The translations under genes and the position numbers were made by a program. A stretch of 39,394 nucleotides of DNA from Archaeoglobus sp. JdFR-27 (lineage in GTDB: Archaea > Halobacteriota > Archaeoglobi > Archaeoglobales > Archaeoglobaceae): contig MTMO01000025.1 of assembly GCA_002011235.1 (NCBI GenBank), positions 1-39,394 on the forward strand. Reading direction: 5' to 3'. Each line of letters begins with the position of its first letter. The first letter of the stretch is position 1. This document shows, in pieces, positions 7,526 to 17,899 of the stretch. The notes below the pieces were generated by a model that searched no databases, was not told the origin of the DNA, and worked only from the letters and a program-made list of their open reading frames with translations.

Positions 7526-8188
7526 CTATCTCCTTCTGTAAAGAACAAAAAGGATAAGCATGAGTACACCAAAAACAACAAGTCCCACTGCTATCGGATC
7601 GATGGTAGGAACTATTTCTGCCTTCAGTTCAGGAGTTGGAGTTGGGATTATCTTCGGAGTTGGAGTTTGAGTCGGAATTGGTGTTGGAGTTGGAGTTTGG
7701 GTTGGAACTGGCGTTACTGGTGTTGGTGCTGGAGTTGGTGCTGGAGTTGGTGCTGGGATGGGAGTTTCCAAAACACCCGGGGTTTCTGCTGGTTTTGGCA
7801 CTCTATCGATTTCAATTGCTTTCTTGGCAACTGGGGCAACTCCTGGAATCCTCTGAGTGGTAAGAAACCGATATGCAGAGGTTAGAATCGATAGCACTGC
7901 AACAACCAACAGACCAACGAGCTTTATTGTATCCTGCCTAATAACTCTCTTTCCCTTTTCTGTAAGCTCGTAGTAAACCCATTTCCTCTCGTTCTCAACT
8001 CTCCTAACCATTCCCGTCTCACAGAGTTTCTCTAAATGGTAAACGAGAGTTGGTTTTGAGTAACCGGTTGTCCTTGCAAGCTCGGAGACGGTGTGTGGTC
8101 TTGACTCAAGCTGAAAAAGTATCTTGCTCCTTGAAGTAGTGAAAATATCCCTCAAGCTACTTATCACAGATTTTAATGCCTTTTTCAT
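7526..8188 (-). CDS. Membrane-anchored winged-helix regulator with exported Pro/Thr linker
   Basis: Residues about 13-86 form an ArsR/MarR-like winged helix: the recognition helix lies in [20 protein letters not shown] and the wing in [21 protein letters not shown] first membrane helix follows (about 88-108). A long Pro/Thr/Ala-rich segment (143-186, repeated PTP units) leads to a second membrane helix (199-217) ending in YRRR. Topology should be DNA-binding domain inside, Pro/Thr linker outside, C-terminus inside. Such one-component membrane regulators may sense an envelope signal; the ligand is unknown. It is divergent from pscS with 84 bp between them, so the intergenic region could be its operator. 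Confidence 0.8.
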
Positions 8189-8191
8189 TAA

Positions 8192-9400
<1,209 letters not shown>

Positions 9401-9493
9401 AACAACTGAAAACACTGAAGCTGTAGGGATAAATTTGAATCTAGAACTCAAAACCTCATCAATCTTTTATCTCTTCTTTGTTTGCTAAGTCTA

Positions 9494-10225
9494 ATGTTAA
9501 AGGATTGGATAGAAAGGAAAAACGATCGAAAATATGCATACAACTTTGCAACAATCAGCGAGCTCACAAGTTACGTTTACTGCCCAAGGCTTTGCTACTT
9601 CCGACAAAGATACGGTGAGCAGCCAGGCGTTCTGAATGCCGCCAAAGAGATTTACCTAAGCTTGAGAAAGGGTCTGGATCTGAAATGGGCAAGGAATAGA
9701 TTTCTGAACATTGGTGGAACCGAAGAGGTATTCGATGTTGCAAAAAGAGATTTCTTAATTAAGGATTCGCTCGAGGATTTAGAAGACTACAAACCGATGG
9801 ATTGGGAAGTTACGCTTGCATCAGAAAAGTACAGGTTGAAAGGGATTATCGATGAAATCGTGCTCAAAAATTCGGAGATTAAGCCATTAGCTATTTCCCT
9901 AAGAGGGCCCAAGGAGGGGGTTTGGTTTAAGGATGCCATAAAAGTTGTCTCTCAAATTATGCTCATGAATGAAGAGAATAGGATGGTAAATCTTTCTGGA
10001 GGTAAGATTGAAGGGGGTTTGGTTTACTACTGCTTCGATGGTAAGATAAGAGAAGTAAAGCTGGACAGAAGAATGAGATTTCACGTGATCAAACTTGTGG
10101 AGAGAGTTCTGAGACTAAAAAAGGGGTTCATTCCAGAAAGAATCGAGGGGAAGAAGTGCCAAAACTGTGGTTATAAGAGGGACTGTCAAACTACAGCCAG
10201 TACATTTGCTTCGAAATTTCTTTAA
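9494..10225 (+). CDS. Cas4-like (DUF83) Fe-S protein with degenerate nuclease site
   Basis: A 243-residue protein with the Cas4/AddB-type layout: an N-terminal SYVYCPRLCYFR with Cys30 (and Cys34) and a C-terminal cluster CQNCGYKRDC (Cys222, 225, 231), so the four Fe-S ligands are present. The PD-(D/E)XK core keeps GIIDEI (Asp120), but the expected E-x-K strand reads P-L-A-I-S (Ala133, Ser135). The Q-x-x-x-Y motif has lost its Tyr (VSQIMLM). It may therefore be a nuclease-dead Fe-S protein that binds DNA or a partner. There is no CRISPR array or other cas gene nearby. I use ATG 9494; a TTG at 9482 would add four residues. It follows pscS in the same direction with 93 bp between. Confidence 0.75.
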   Translation: MLKDWIERKNDRKYAYNFATISELTSYVYCPRLCYFRQRYGEQPGVLNAAKEIYLSLRKGLDLKWARNRFLNIGGTEEVFDVAKRDFLIKDSLEDLEDYKPMDWEVTLASEKYRLKGIIDEIVLKNSEIKPLAISLRGPKEGVWFKDAIKVVSQIMLMNEENRMVNLSGGKIEGGLVYYCFDGKIREVKLDRRMRFHVIKLVERVLRLKKGFIPERIEGKKCQNCGYKRDCQTTASTFASKFL

Positions 10226-10256: not shown

Positions 10257-11564
10257 CTATTTCAGCTCATCAAATGCCTTTTTGTGCTTGTAACGCGAGA
10301 TCGCTATAGCGGCTGCTCCACCTCCACCAATAATAATCGCAACTACAGCCCCTATAAGCACAAGTCTGTCTCTCTGCTCAAAGAAGAAGAGTTGAGGAGT
10401 TGGGCTCTGTGTAGGGGTAGGAGTGGGTGTTGGGGTTGGCGTTTTCTTTGCCTCATCAATCTTTTTCCTCAACTCCGCTATGAGCGAGTTTGCCTGCATT
10501 GTCAAGGCAGCCGTTTCGTTAATGATGTTGTTCGATCTCTTTATAACGTCGTCGAATTTGTCCTTTTCCAGATAGTCTGCTGTCTTATCGTTTTTCTCAA
10601 CCAAGTTCGTATATTTGCTCTTTAAGGTGATTAACTGAAACTCGTAGCTTGAGACTGGTATATTTTCATCTTTGGCCTCCCTGATTGTATAATCGAACTG
10701 CACAAGTGCAACTGATAGTTTCTCAAGTTCATTTCCAGCTTTTTCGTAGATGAAGTTTGCTTCTGACTTAGATAGCTCAAAGGCAGCTTTACCAAGTAAA
10801 TCTTCAACATTTGTTAGCTTATCGTCCGCATTTGAGTAATCTCCAATTTTGTAGTAATTCTCGGCAACTGTTAGATTGTCTCTCGCTTTTTCTAAATAAT
10901 CCTTTGCTTCTGCCGTAACTGCTCCTTCCTCCTCAAGCTCATTAGCTCTTTTCTGGAGGTTTGTGTACTTTTGCTTAAGAGTATCTATGTCCTCCGTAAA
11001 TTGATTGAGATTGAAGACTTTTATTTCAACTAGTGGTAAGGCGTTGGCATCTGCATCCGAGATTTCGACATAGAGTGCTTTAACCGCTTCAAGCCTTTTT
11101 TGAGCAGTTGGAACTATCCCTTTAACTACCACTTCGATATAATCCACACCATACTGGGCTGTATCCCCTATTCTAAAAGACATTTTTACAGTTCCGTCTA
11201 GAAGATCACAGGCATCTTCAGGGTTTTGACATTTTCCATTCACATACTGGTGTTTTATAGATGCTCCTGTTGCTAAAAAAACTGTAGCTTCAAGAGTGGC
11301 TGTATCAAGTGAAGAATATAAGGTATAATAACGATACACAGAACCTTCCCCATCTAAAGCCGTTTTCTTGCTTTCTGAGGCAGGCCTTATATAATATATA
11401 AACTCAAGTCTCTCTCCAGGCTGGTAATACTCTTTTTCAACACCCTGTGGTGTTGGATTTCCAAAATCACTTGAATTAAGATGTTCGATAGCCATAACAA
11501 GTGGCATACTCGATACCGATATGATAAAAATTACTAAAAAATTAATTAGTATCCTCTTCTTCAT
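10257..11564 (-). CDS. Secreted, membrane-anchored coiled-coil protein with Pro/Thr linker
   Basis: A 435-residue surface protein. An N-terminal signal peptide (KKR, hydrophobic core, cleavage near VMA at 23-25) precedes a beta-rich domain with a CQNPEDAC cysteine pair. A long helical/coiled-coil region (about 190-375) follows, then a repeated TPTPTP linker (about 377-391), a membrane helix (about 400-422) with GGGGAAA, and a basic cytosolic tail. It should be anchored in the membrane with most of the chain outside. Its ATG follows an AGGAGGG site that overlaps the cetZ stop region, so it is the second gene of a cetZ operon. This suggests a physical or developmental link between the tubulin-like filament and the envelope, which is inference. 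Confidence 0.75.
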   Translation of the reverse strand: MKKRILINFLVIFIISVSSMPLVMAIEHLNSSDFGNPTPQGVEKEYYQPGERLEFIYYIRPASESKKTALDGEGSVYRYYTLYSSLDTATLEATVFLATGASIKHQYVNGKCQNPEDACDLLDGTVKMSFRIGDTAQYGVDYIEVVVKGIVPTAQKRLEAVKALYVEISDADANALPLVEIKVFNLNQFTEDIDTLKQKYTNLQKRANELEEEGAVTAEAKDYLEKARDNLTVAENYYKIGDYSNADDKLTNVEDLLGKAAFELSKSEANFIYEKAGNELEKLSVALVQFDYTIREAKDENIPVSSYEFQLITLKSKYTNLVEKNDKTADYLEKDKFDDVIKRSNNIINETAALTMQANSLIAELRKKIDEAKKTPTPTPTPTPTQSPTPQLFFFEQRDRLVLIGAVVAIIIGGGGAAAIAISRYKHKKAFDELK

Positions 11565-11573
11565 ATTACCCTC

Positions 11574-12746
11574 CTAGAAAAGAGGTTCTATATCCTCATC
11601 AAACAAGGCAAGGGTTTTTTCAAGTCTGCTCTTTTCTGCCCCCTCAACCTCTTCTTTGGCTTCAGCAGCTAGCCTTTGAAGTTGCTTTACTCTCGGGATA
11701 TCAGTTACATTTGCAAGAACGACTAAAGCGGCGACGTACTTCGTTCTCCTTGTCGGATAGTCTCCTGCTCTAACCTCCACTCCAGAGATTTGCTCTTCTA
11801 ACCATAGTTTGGCTTTCTCAATTCCTTTCCTGTCAAGGTGCTCAGGTGGTCCAGCCACCAGAACGAGGGCTTTTTCAGCACTTTTGATGTTGCAAGGAAC
11901 AGAAAGCCTGCCCAGGGCTGCTCTTCTAACCAGAGAGGCTATTTTCATCGATTTATCCTCATCATAAGTGCCCTTTTCTTCTCTCTTGAAAAGTCCCTTA
12001 AGTCTGAATCTCCTTTTCTTCTCCCCCGTTTCAGCCATTGATGTTGCATAACCAATAGATGAGATTCCTCCTCCCTTAAACGTGTTTATTACTTCAGAAC
12101 TGTCTACAACCATTTCACCAACCATTCCCTCTTCTATCGGCTCTCCTGCCCTTGCGAGAATAGCTAACCTCCTTACTATCTCCTCATTTATCTTAGCAAA
12201 CGATTCTTTAAGGCTAGCTCCTTCAAATTTCCACGCTCCATTGTCGATGAGGATTAGATTGTCAACATATTTTAAGAGAGTGATTACACTTCTAGCTGCA
12301 TTTAATGAGTAAAGTTTGCCCTCTTCGGGAGCGGGAAGAATTCCGACCGCATATACTGGCTCGGAGTACATCTCGCTGAGATATCTTGCAAGAACCGGGC
12401 TCCCCCCACTACCAGTTCCTCCTCCAAGCCCGGTGATGATTAGAAAAGCATCAACATCGTGGGTTCCTTTCTCATCTATCGCGTTCAGTATTGTTTCAAT
12501 TTCATCTTGGGCAATTTTTGCACCCATTTTGTTATCAGTTCCAACTCCATGACCTTTGACAACAGTCTGACCGATGAGGATCCTATCTTTCATTGGTATA
12601 TGATTGAGGCCCATCAAATCTGTTCTAGCGGTATTCACAGCAAGAGTATGGAGCTTTATTCCCGCTCCTCTCTTTTTCTCATTCTCGACAAATAAATCGA
12701 GGATCTTGCCTCCTGCCTGCCCGAAACCAATTGCAAAGAATCTCAT
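11574..12746 (-). CDS. cetZ: CetZ tubulin-like cell-shape GTPase
   Basis: A 390-residue member of the archaeal CetZ group of the tubulin/FtsZ superfamily, GTP-dependent polymers that control cell shape in haloarchaea. The N-terminal IGFGQAGGK (6-14) and the tubulin signature GLGGGTGSGGSP (106-117) bind GTP. The Asn/Ala stretch AVNTARTDL is the usual CetZ nucleotide contact. Residues about 240-265 carry a very basic insertion (KKRRFRLKGLFKREEK) in the C-terminal domain. The C-terminus ends acidic-hydrophobic (DEDIEPLF), a possible partner-binding tail like that of FtsZ. A GGTGAAAA site precedes the ATG. It is followed after nine bases by a membrane-anchored surface protein. Confidence 0.9.
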   Translation of the reverse strand: MRFFAIGFGQAGGKILDLFVENEKKRGAGIKLHTLAVNTARTDLMGLNHIPMKDRILIGQTVVKGHGVGTDNKMGAKIAQDEIETILNAIDEKGTHDVDAFLIITGLGGGTGSGGSPVLARYLSEMYSEPVYAVGILPAPEEGKLYSLNAARSVITLLKYVDNLILIDNGAWKFEGASLKESFAKINEEIVRRLAILARAGEPIEEGMVGEMVVDSSEVINTFKGGGISSIGYATSMAETGEKKRRFRLKGLFKREEKGTYDEDKSMKIASLVRRAALGRLSVPCNIKSAEKALVLVAGPPEHLDRKGIEKAKLWLEEQISGVEVRAGDYPTRRTKYVAALVVLANVTDIPRVKQLQRLAAEAKEEVEGAEKSRLEKTLALFDEDIEPLF

Positions 12747-17762: not shown

Positions 17763-17845
17763 TTGGGTTTGATTTAAGTAGATAACTTTGTTTTTTTATA
17801 ATTTCTTCACCCTCGCGTCCTTCTCTAATTTTTTCACTAATTTTA

Positions 17846-17899
17846 ATTTGAGTTGAGTTGACTCGTTTTCTTATTTGAGTTGAGTTGACTCGTTTTCTT
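17846..17899. repeat. Perfect 27-bp tandem duplication
   Basis: Two identical 27-bp copies (17846-17872 and 17873-17899), each containing TTGAGTTGAGTTGACTCG. They lie in the gene-free stretch between the membrane protein and the transposase remnant. They may be a replication-slippage duplication or a paired binding site. Confidence 0.8.

Follow-up and report, generated by a model that had tools for sequence, protein, structure and literature searches.

A Cas4-like protein of Archaeoglobus sp. JdFR-27 belongs to an archaeal clade that keeps the predicted Fe-S cysteines and lacks the nuclease residues

Cas4 proteins (PF01930/TIGR00372) occur in association with CRISPR and as solo genes, and combine a RecB-type fold with four Fe-S cluster cysteines. 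In the consulted sections of a Cas4 phylogenomic study, the catalytic motifs are described as conserved in all Cas4, and a virion protein of TTV1 is the only inactivated Cas4 named (PMC5704561). This protein, TP1, is presented in the consulted part of its own report as an inactivated Cas4 that coats the viral dsDNA; it has lost the motif III Glu, uses the Cas4 fold non-enzymatically, belongs to a split viral gene, and is without an Fe-S cluster (PMC4625639). Fe-S cysteines placed around a RecB-like core are also a feature of the nuclease domains of Dna2, AddB and EXO5, and HerA-NurA forms an end-resection pair that includes a HerA-type ATPase.

The gene described here lies in a 39,394-nt contig of Archaeoglobus sp. 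JdFR-27 (the window), and its product resembles each of these systems in part. It shares with Cas4 the RecB-type fold, the four cluster cysteines and the order of the motifs, and has Cas4 as its best fold match, whereas its family has neither the acid of E-x-K nor QhxxY, carries an added C-terminal tail, has no cas linkage and forms a separate branch. In contrast to Dna2, AddB and EXO5 it is a single, small protein without helicase, and the catalytic residues are lost. It recalls HerA-NurA in that some loci form an operon with a HerA-type ATPase, but no match to the NurA domain (PF09376) was obtained for the window protein among families up to E 1, and NurA has its own gene at another site (51 of the 55 genomes). 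Unlike TP1, the gene is cellular, apparently vertically inherited, and consists of one unsplit ORF with all four cluster cysteines, and one scan of viral contigs gave no relative. No account of an inactivated cellular Cas4 matching this clade was recognised in the literature searched.

The gene occupies positions 9494..10225 of the forward strand (stop included) and is real as an ORF, with 243 aa from the ATG at 9494, from which residues are numbered here; a TTG at 9482 is also in open frame. Its designation as a gene for a Cas4-like, nuclease-dead Fe-S protein is based on the ORF, on Pfam, NCBIfam and PADLOC matches, and on a structure model. The protein scored 27 bits against Pfam Cas_Cas4 (cut-off 22.7), 68 bits against PADLOC Cas4d, and 60.2 bits against TIGR00372 (cas4), below the 65-bit equivalog cut-off, which it thus failed. 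In a sample of four other members, two passed this cut-off (L099, 67.3 bits; L109, 76.9 bits) and two failed (L105, 63.4 bits; L068, 58.2 bits). Because some dead members pass the NCBI cas4 cut-off, they can inflate counts of archaeal solo-Cas4, and part of what is tallied as Cas4 nucleases probably has another function.

A sequence search of solved structures with the window protein gave Dna2 as best match, only near E 0.1. Structure modelling had been proposed as a check by the first-pass annotation of this DNA; the AlphaFold model, built on 22 aligned sequences (pLDDT 88.1, pTM 0.85; low confidence at N-terminal residues 2-13 and at the C-terminal end), shows the RecB-like fold of the Cas4 family. 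The nearest solved structure was Cas4 as it occurs in a Cas4/Cas1/Cas2 complex (7mi4_A; Z 17.3, rmsd 2.7, 176 aligned; VIA-align), and comparison of the model with other structures matched Dna2 (5eax_A; Z 14.5, rmsd 5.9, 229 aligned) and EXO5 (7lw8_A; Z 10.6, rmsd 3.7, 162 aligned). Foldseek agreed on Cas4 and Dna2 as the closest folds, and the matched solved structures include DNA complexes.

For comparison of motifs, an alignment (A1) was made of 37 Archaeoglobaceae members (group A), 24 more distant members (group B; 20 of the approximately 101 hits outside the class and four from sister families within the order and class), and 23 Cas4-like controls (group C). The controls comprised 17 Cas4 or Cas4-like proteins, of which 16 came from Archaeoglobaceae genomes (one, L104, is partial) and G057 supplied the last, together with six products of c11, an intact Cas4-like nuclease gene (motifs GRIDA, IEIKTSR and QA-IYNWL; e.g. 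L042:6935-7501 and L040:8399-8974). Excluded beforehand were sequences cut by contig ends (L037, L083), sequences with stops or a frame problem (L052, L079), L081 and L082 (broken copy), L075 (near copy of L073), the further near copies L043, L059, L061, L072 and L078, and a Cas4 (L084).

All four cysteines expected of a Cas4 family cluster were reported for the window protein in the first-pass annotation, and all are present: Cys30 of a C-P-R motif as first ligand (9581..9583), and Cys222, Cys225 and Cys231 as the remaining three (10157..10186). Each is Cys in 61/61 members, the cluster itself being predicted. The Asp of G-I-I-D is likewise retained, as Asp120, followed by Glu121 in a GxxD-E motif (9851..9856). 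The E-x-K strand is degenerate and indeed reads A-I-S (Ala133-Ile134-Ser135; 9890..9898): at the position of the Glu (133) an acidic residue was found in none of the 61 aligned members, including 24/24 group B members inspected, versus Asp or Glu in 23/23 controls. The Lys of E-x-K is present in all 23 controls, and group B has Lys in 11, Arg in 11 and a gap in two of its 24 sequences; in group A it never stands in that column (lost in 37/37), where the strand is gapped by one column, and the exact pairing is less sure than the absence of the acid. The sites of the QhxxY Gln and Tyr correspond by alignment to Lys150 and Gln154 (9941..9955). The Gln is found in 21/23 controls, 8/24 of group B and 0/37 of group A, and the Tyr in 23/23 controls; the absence of the motif Tyr had therefore been read correctly, and the motif Gln has to be reassigned, since it corresponds to Lys150 and the Q of VVSQ is not the motif Gln. 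The Cas4 catalytic motif set (D, E-x-K, QhxxY) is thus not retained as a whole by this family. Judged from the alignment, loss of the metal-binding Glu is common to the whole clade, with further decay varying by lineage; since none of the 61 members retains the Glu, the first-pass view that the Fe-S scaffold was kept and catalysis lost is well supported, as a family-wide feature and not a quirk of one genome.

Of 55 Archaeoglobaceae genomes, 47 carry the gene according to protein and profile searches (48 in the raw count, minus G045, which matches only through a Cas4; a broken copy in G010, one with in-frame stops in G031, and copies cut by contig ends in G044 and G011 are included), and 146 of 294 genomes phylum-wide gave a match at E 1e-18. 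In a tree, the 61 members separate from the 23 controls (87/89), and the Archaeoglobaceae members fall together (98/94); the clade is best explained as ancient and mostly vertically inherited within this archaeal phylum. Values of dN/dS (omega) were 0.07-0.24 in eight of nine pairs, and the ninth pair was saturated. With the catalytic residues lost, this purifying selection acts on something other than cutting; vertical inheritance, purifying selection and the near-invariant tail described below mark a real cellular role. Some hosts are presumably Methanosarcina-type organisms, which would open this role to genetic testing. An old cellular clade of this kind breaks the rule of conserved Cas4 catalytic motifs, as that rule is worded in the consulted sections of the phylogenomic study (PMC5704561).

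A viral origin was rejected, with no relative detected in one scan of viral contigs; the BFVD matches, among the 50 listed, were PD-(D/E)XK nucleases of 11-18% identity, a few lower. The broken copies are a match in four pieces in G010 (L082, C14:78907-79605) and a copy with three in-frame TGA codons in G031 (L052:7884-8534), and therefore the gene can decay in single lineages, unless these are assembly errors. Genome G000 has two further copies, on the short contigs C5 (L081) and C6 (L075); these contigs are 99.9% identical to G010 and 99.6% identical to G003, respectively, and are probably contaminants of the assembly.

The gene had been placed away from any CRISPR locus, with no cas gene nearby, and this was borne out: a search of the window for CRISPR-like arrays was negative, no cas model was the main match of any other window protein tested (overlapping sets of 8, 8, 10 and 10, a subset of the ORFs), the genome's only Cas1 match sits on another contig, and there is no linkage to cas1/cas2 as in the Cas4 family. 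Across the family, presence of the gene is independent of Cas1 (14 of 16 Cas1-free genomes and approximately 33 of 39 with Cas1, broken and cut copies counted as present), and a CRISPR link was rejected on the 14 Cas1-free genomes.

Directly upstream in the window is the gene for SepCysS (pscS; 8273..9400, forward strand; 569.6 bits). The first-pass annotation had noted this neighbour and raised the question whether orthologues keep it; they do not, as pscS adjoins the gene in only two of 49 loci (the window and L036), and the link was rejected as a general feature. A second HerA-type ATPase gene (HerA2) precedes the Cas4-like gene in the same orientation at 10 of 49 loci, of genera g1, g4, g8 and g12, and in nine of these ten a DUF555 gene follows HerA2 to give the order HerA2, DUF555, Cas4-like gene (profile matches of 141.6 bits to DUF87 for HerA2 and 162.7 bits to DUF555 for the neighbour). 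The g12 carriers form the basal branch of the family tree (midpoint root only), and hence the linkage looks ancestral. HerA2 is distinct from the NurA-linked HerA; in G013, the HerA-NurA pair is located at 333-336 kb and HerA2 at 613 kb. HerA2 and the Cas4-like gene are unlinked in most lineages, the window's own included, where HerA2 and DUF555 are still adjacent on another contig (L160). Among the 55 genomes, 39 have both genes, eight the Cas4-like gene only, four HerA2 only and four neither, a weak co-occurrence (Fisher p 0.06, uncorrected for kinship or completeness). The HerA2-DUF555 operon and the conserved tail are better clues to the role than pscS; neither of them, nor the breadth of the family, had been noticed in the first-pass annotation.

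Other neighbours comprise, in the 24 loci outside the Archaeoglobaceae, Orc1/Cdc6 directly upstream in two and a PAPS-reductase/PUA/ferredoxin gene directly downstream in five; a PAPS-reductase/PUA protein in Methanosarcina-like genomes, Cgi121 and a GPN-loop GTPase were also seen, the latter two names being read from sequence and not from a profile match. HerA2 with DUF555 nearby is a recurrent pair well beyond the Archaeoglobaceae (L038:8453-10433, L160, L182-L201), with DUF555 near HerA2 in 12 of 20 loci fetched. DUF555 itself is described, in the consulted parts of two reports, as an uncharacterised family present in most euryarchaea and compatible with essentiality (PMC6393860, PMC9425974).

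The protein ends in T-F-A-S-K-F-L (10202..10222, forward strand), likely a docking peptide. The form S/T-F/L-A-S-K/R-F-F/L-COOH is nearly invariant (57/61 members by pattern, 0/23 controls); after the last Cys the prevailing sequence is T-F-A-S-K-F-L within Archaeoglobaceae and S-L-[AL]-S-K-F-F elsewhere, the exceptions being L040 and L045 (extended) and L117 and L118 (K-[RK]-L-S-D-[IL]-[IL]). Packing of the tail is poor in the AlphaFold model (last block pLDDT 46), which would fit a docking peptide. A PCNA-binding PIP-box, which at the C-terminus has the consensus Q-x-x-h-x-x-aromatic-aromatic, was ruled out; the first-position Gln is absent and the h position is mostly Ala. A similar amphipathic tail is found on HerA2: one regular expression, composed after both tails had been seen, matches 10 of 11 HerA2-cluster members, 58 of 73 in the cluster of the Cas4-like gene, and one of 1043 other ORFs. 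In other archaea, the HerA2 tail is of the GLFKKIFG type, a common kind of amphipathic peptide. Genome-wide in G013, the ending S-[KR]-F-[FL] gave 49 pattern matches versus 54 for a reversed control. Of these 49, 20 were inspected: besides the gene itself, 15 were S-[KR]-F-[FL]-stop, none in an open frame longer than 74 codons with the stop counted, and four of five T-K-F-type matches lay likewise in short open frames, the remaining one (L180) being left unjudged; the 4-residue tail was not found on another evident gene among these 20 matches, under the codons searched.

Our preferred reading, put tentatively at a probability of roughly 0.42, is a non-catalytic Cas4/Dna2-type RecB-fold Fe-S subunit that binds DNA and uses its tail to dock on a DNA-processing machine, which is probably HerA2; we infer cluster binding, DNA binding, docking and the identity of the partner alike. 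The catalytic metal would no longer be coordinated, and for this reason the protein would not cut; the retained fold and the Fe-S-clamped C-terminal lobe would most likely retain a grip on DNA, with ends or single strands as the probable targets; and the C-terminal peptide may anchor the protein to machinery for DNA processing or replication, for which, in Archaeoglobaceae, the best candidate is the HerA2 translocase together with DUF555. This reading is favoured by the HerA2-(DUF555)-gene linkage, the Orc1/Cdc6 neighbour, the similar tail of HerA2 and the precedent of TTV1 TP1. Counted against it are a HerA2 gene that does not strictly co-occur and is unlinked in most lineages, varied neighbours, a net charge below that of the Cas4 controls (medians +6 and +2 vs +8), and a HerA2 tail of a common peptide type, matched by an expression composed after the tails had been seen. 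The repurposed DNA-binding or structural role suggested in the first-pass annotation thus appears plausible. A narrower version, in which the pseudo-nuclease and HerA2, with DUF555, form an undescribed DNA-handling complex and both dock on one partner via a shared C-terminal peptide ([LF]-x-[SKR]-[KR]-h-F), is doubtful; if true, the dead Cas4 would be the DNA-gripping subunit, comparable to the inactive nuclease-fold domain of RecC that serves RecBCD.

Since every catalytic feature has decayed and cysteines and tail persist, and since tRNA and sulfur genes are among its varied neighbours, the protein might also serve as a structural or redox-sensing Fe-S protein that does not act on DNA directly, its nuclease fold a mere scaffold and its tail bound to some other partner. 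We consider this unlikely, as the operons with HerA2 and Orc1/Cdc6 point to DNA, and the folds of Cas4, Dna2 and AddB hold DNA, in keeping with the DNA complexes among the matched structures. An accessory role in tRNA or sulfur metabolism, suggested by pscS upstream in the window and L036 and by the downstream PAPS-reductase/PUA/ferredoxin gene, is very improbable given the rarity of the pscS arrangement and the absence of an RNA-binding domain among the Pfam family matches of the window protein. It is equally hard to credit that the protein still cuts by means of catalytic residues moved to other positions, such as Asp120/Glu121 together with a Lys or Arg at 137 or 150: Archaeoglobaceae members keep Asp120 in 35/37 (Glu in the other two), Glu121 in 37/37 and Lys or Arg at 150 in 37/37, but in group B the Asp is kept in 17/24 and lost in 7/24, Glu121, invariant only in Archaeoglobaceae, is lost in 22/24, and no acid replaces the E-x-K Glu in any of the 61. 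Finally, the protein might regulate CRISPR adaptation or an active Cas4, or serve as a decoy in either; in favour of this, the nearest relatives are Cas4, and the intact c11 gene adjoins the dead gene divergently in six loci (g3 and g11 genomes). This too is improbable, since the gene is present irrespective of Cas1 and close c11 copies are confined to seven of 55 genomes (g3 and g11, all seven without HerA2).

At 10257-12746 of the window, a CetZ-type tubulin gene (220.9 bits) is paired with a gene for a 435-aa protein whose N-terminus is signal-like and whose C-terminus has a membrane stretch, and the two recur as neighbours in about a dozen loci. Positions 7526-8188 encode an ArsR-type HTH protein that also has a linker of Pro-Thr-rich repeats and a membrane segment at its C-terminus, and two tandem 27-nt repeats, 93% identical, are located at 17841-17894, just past the end of an ORF.
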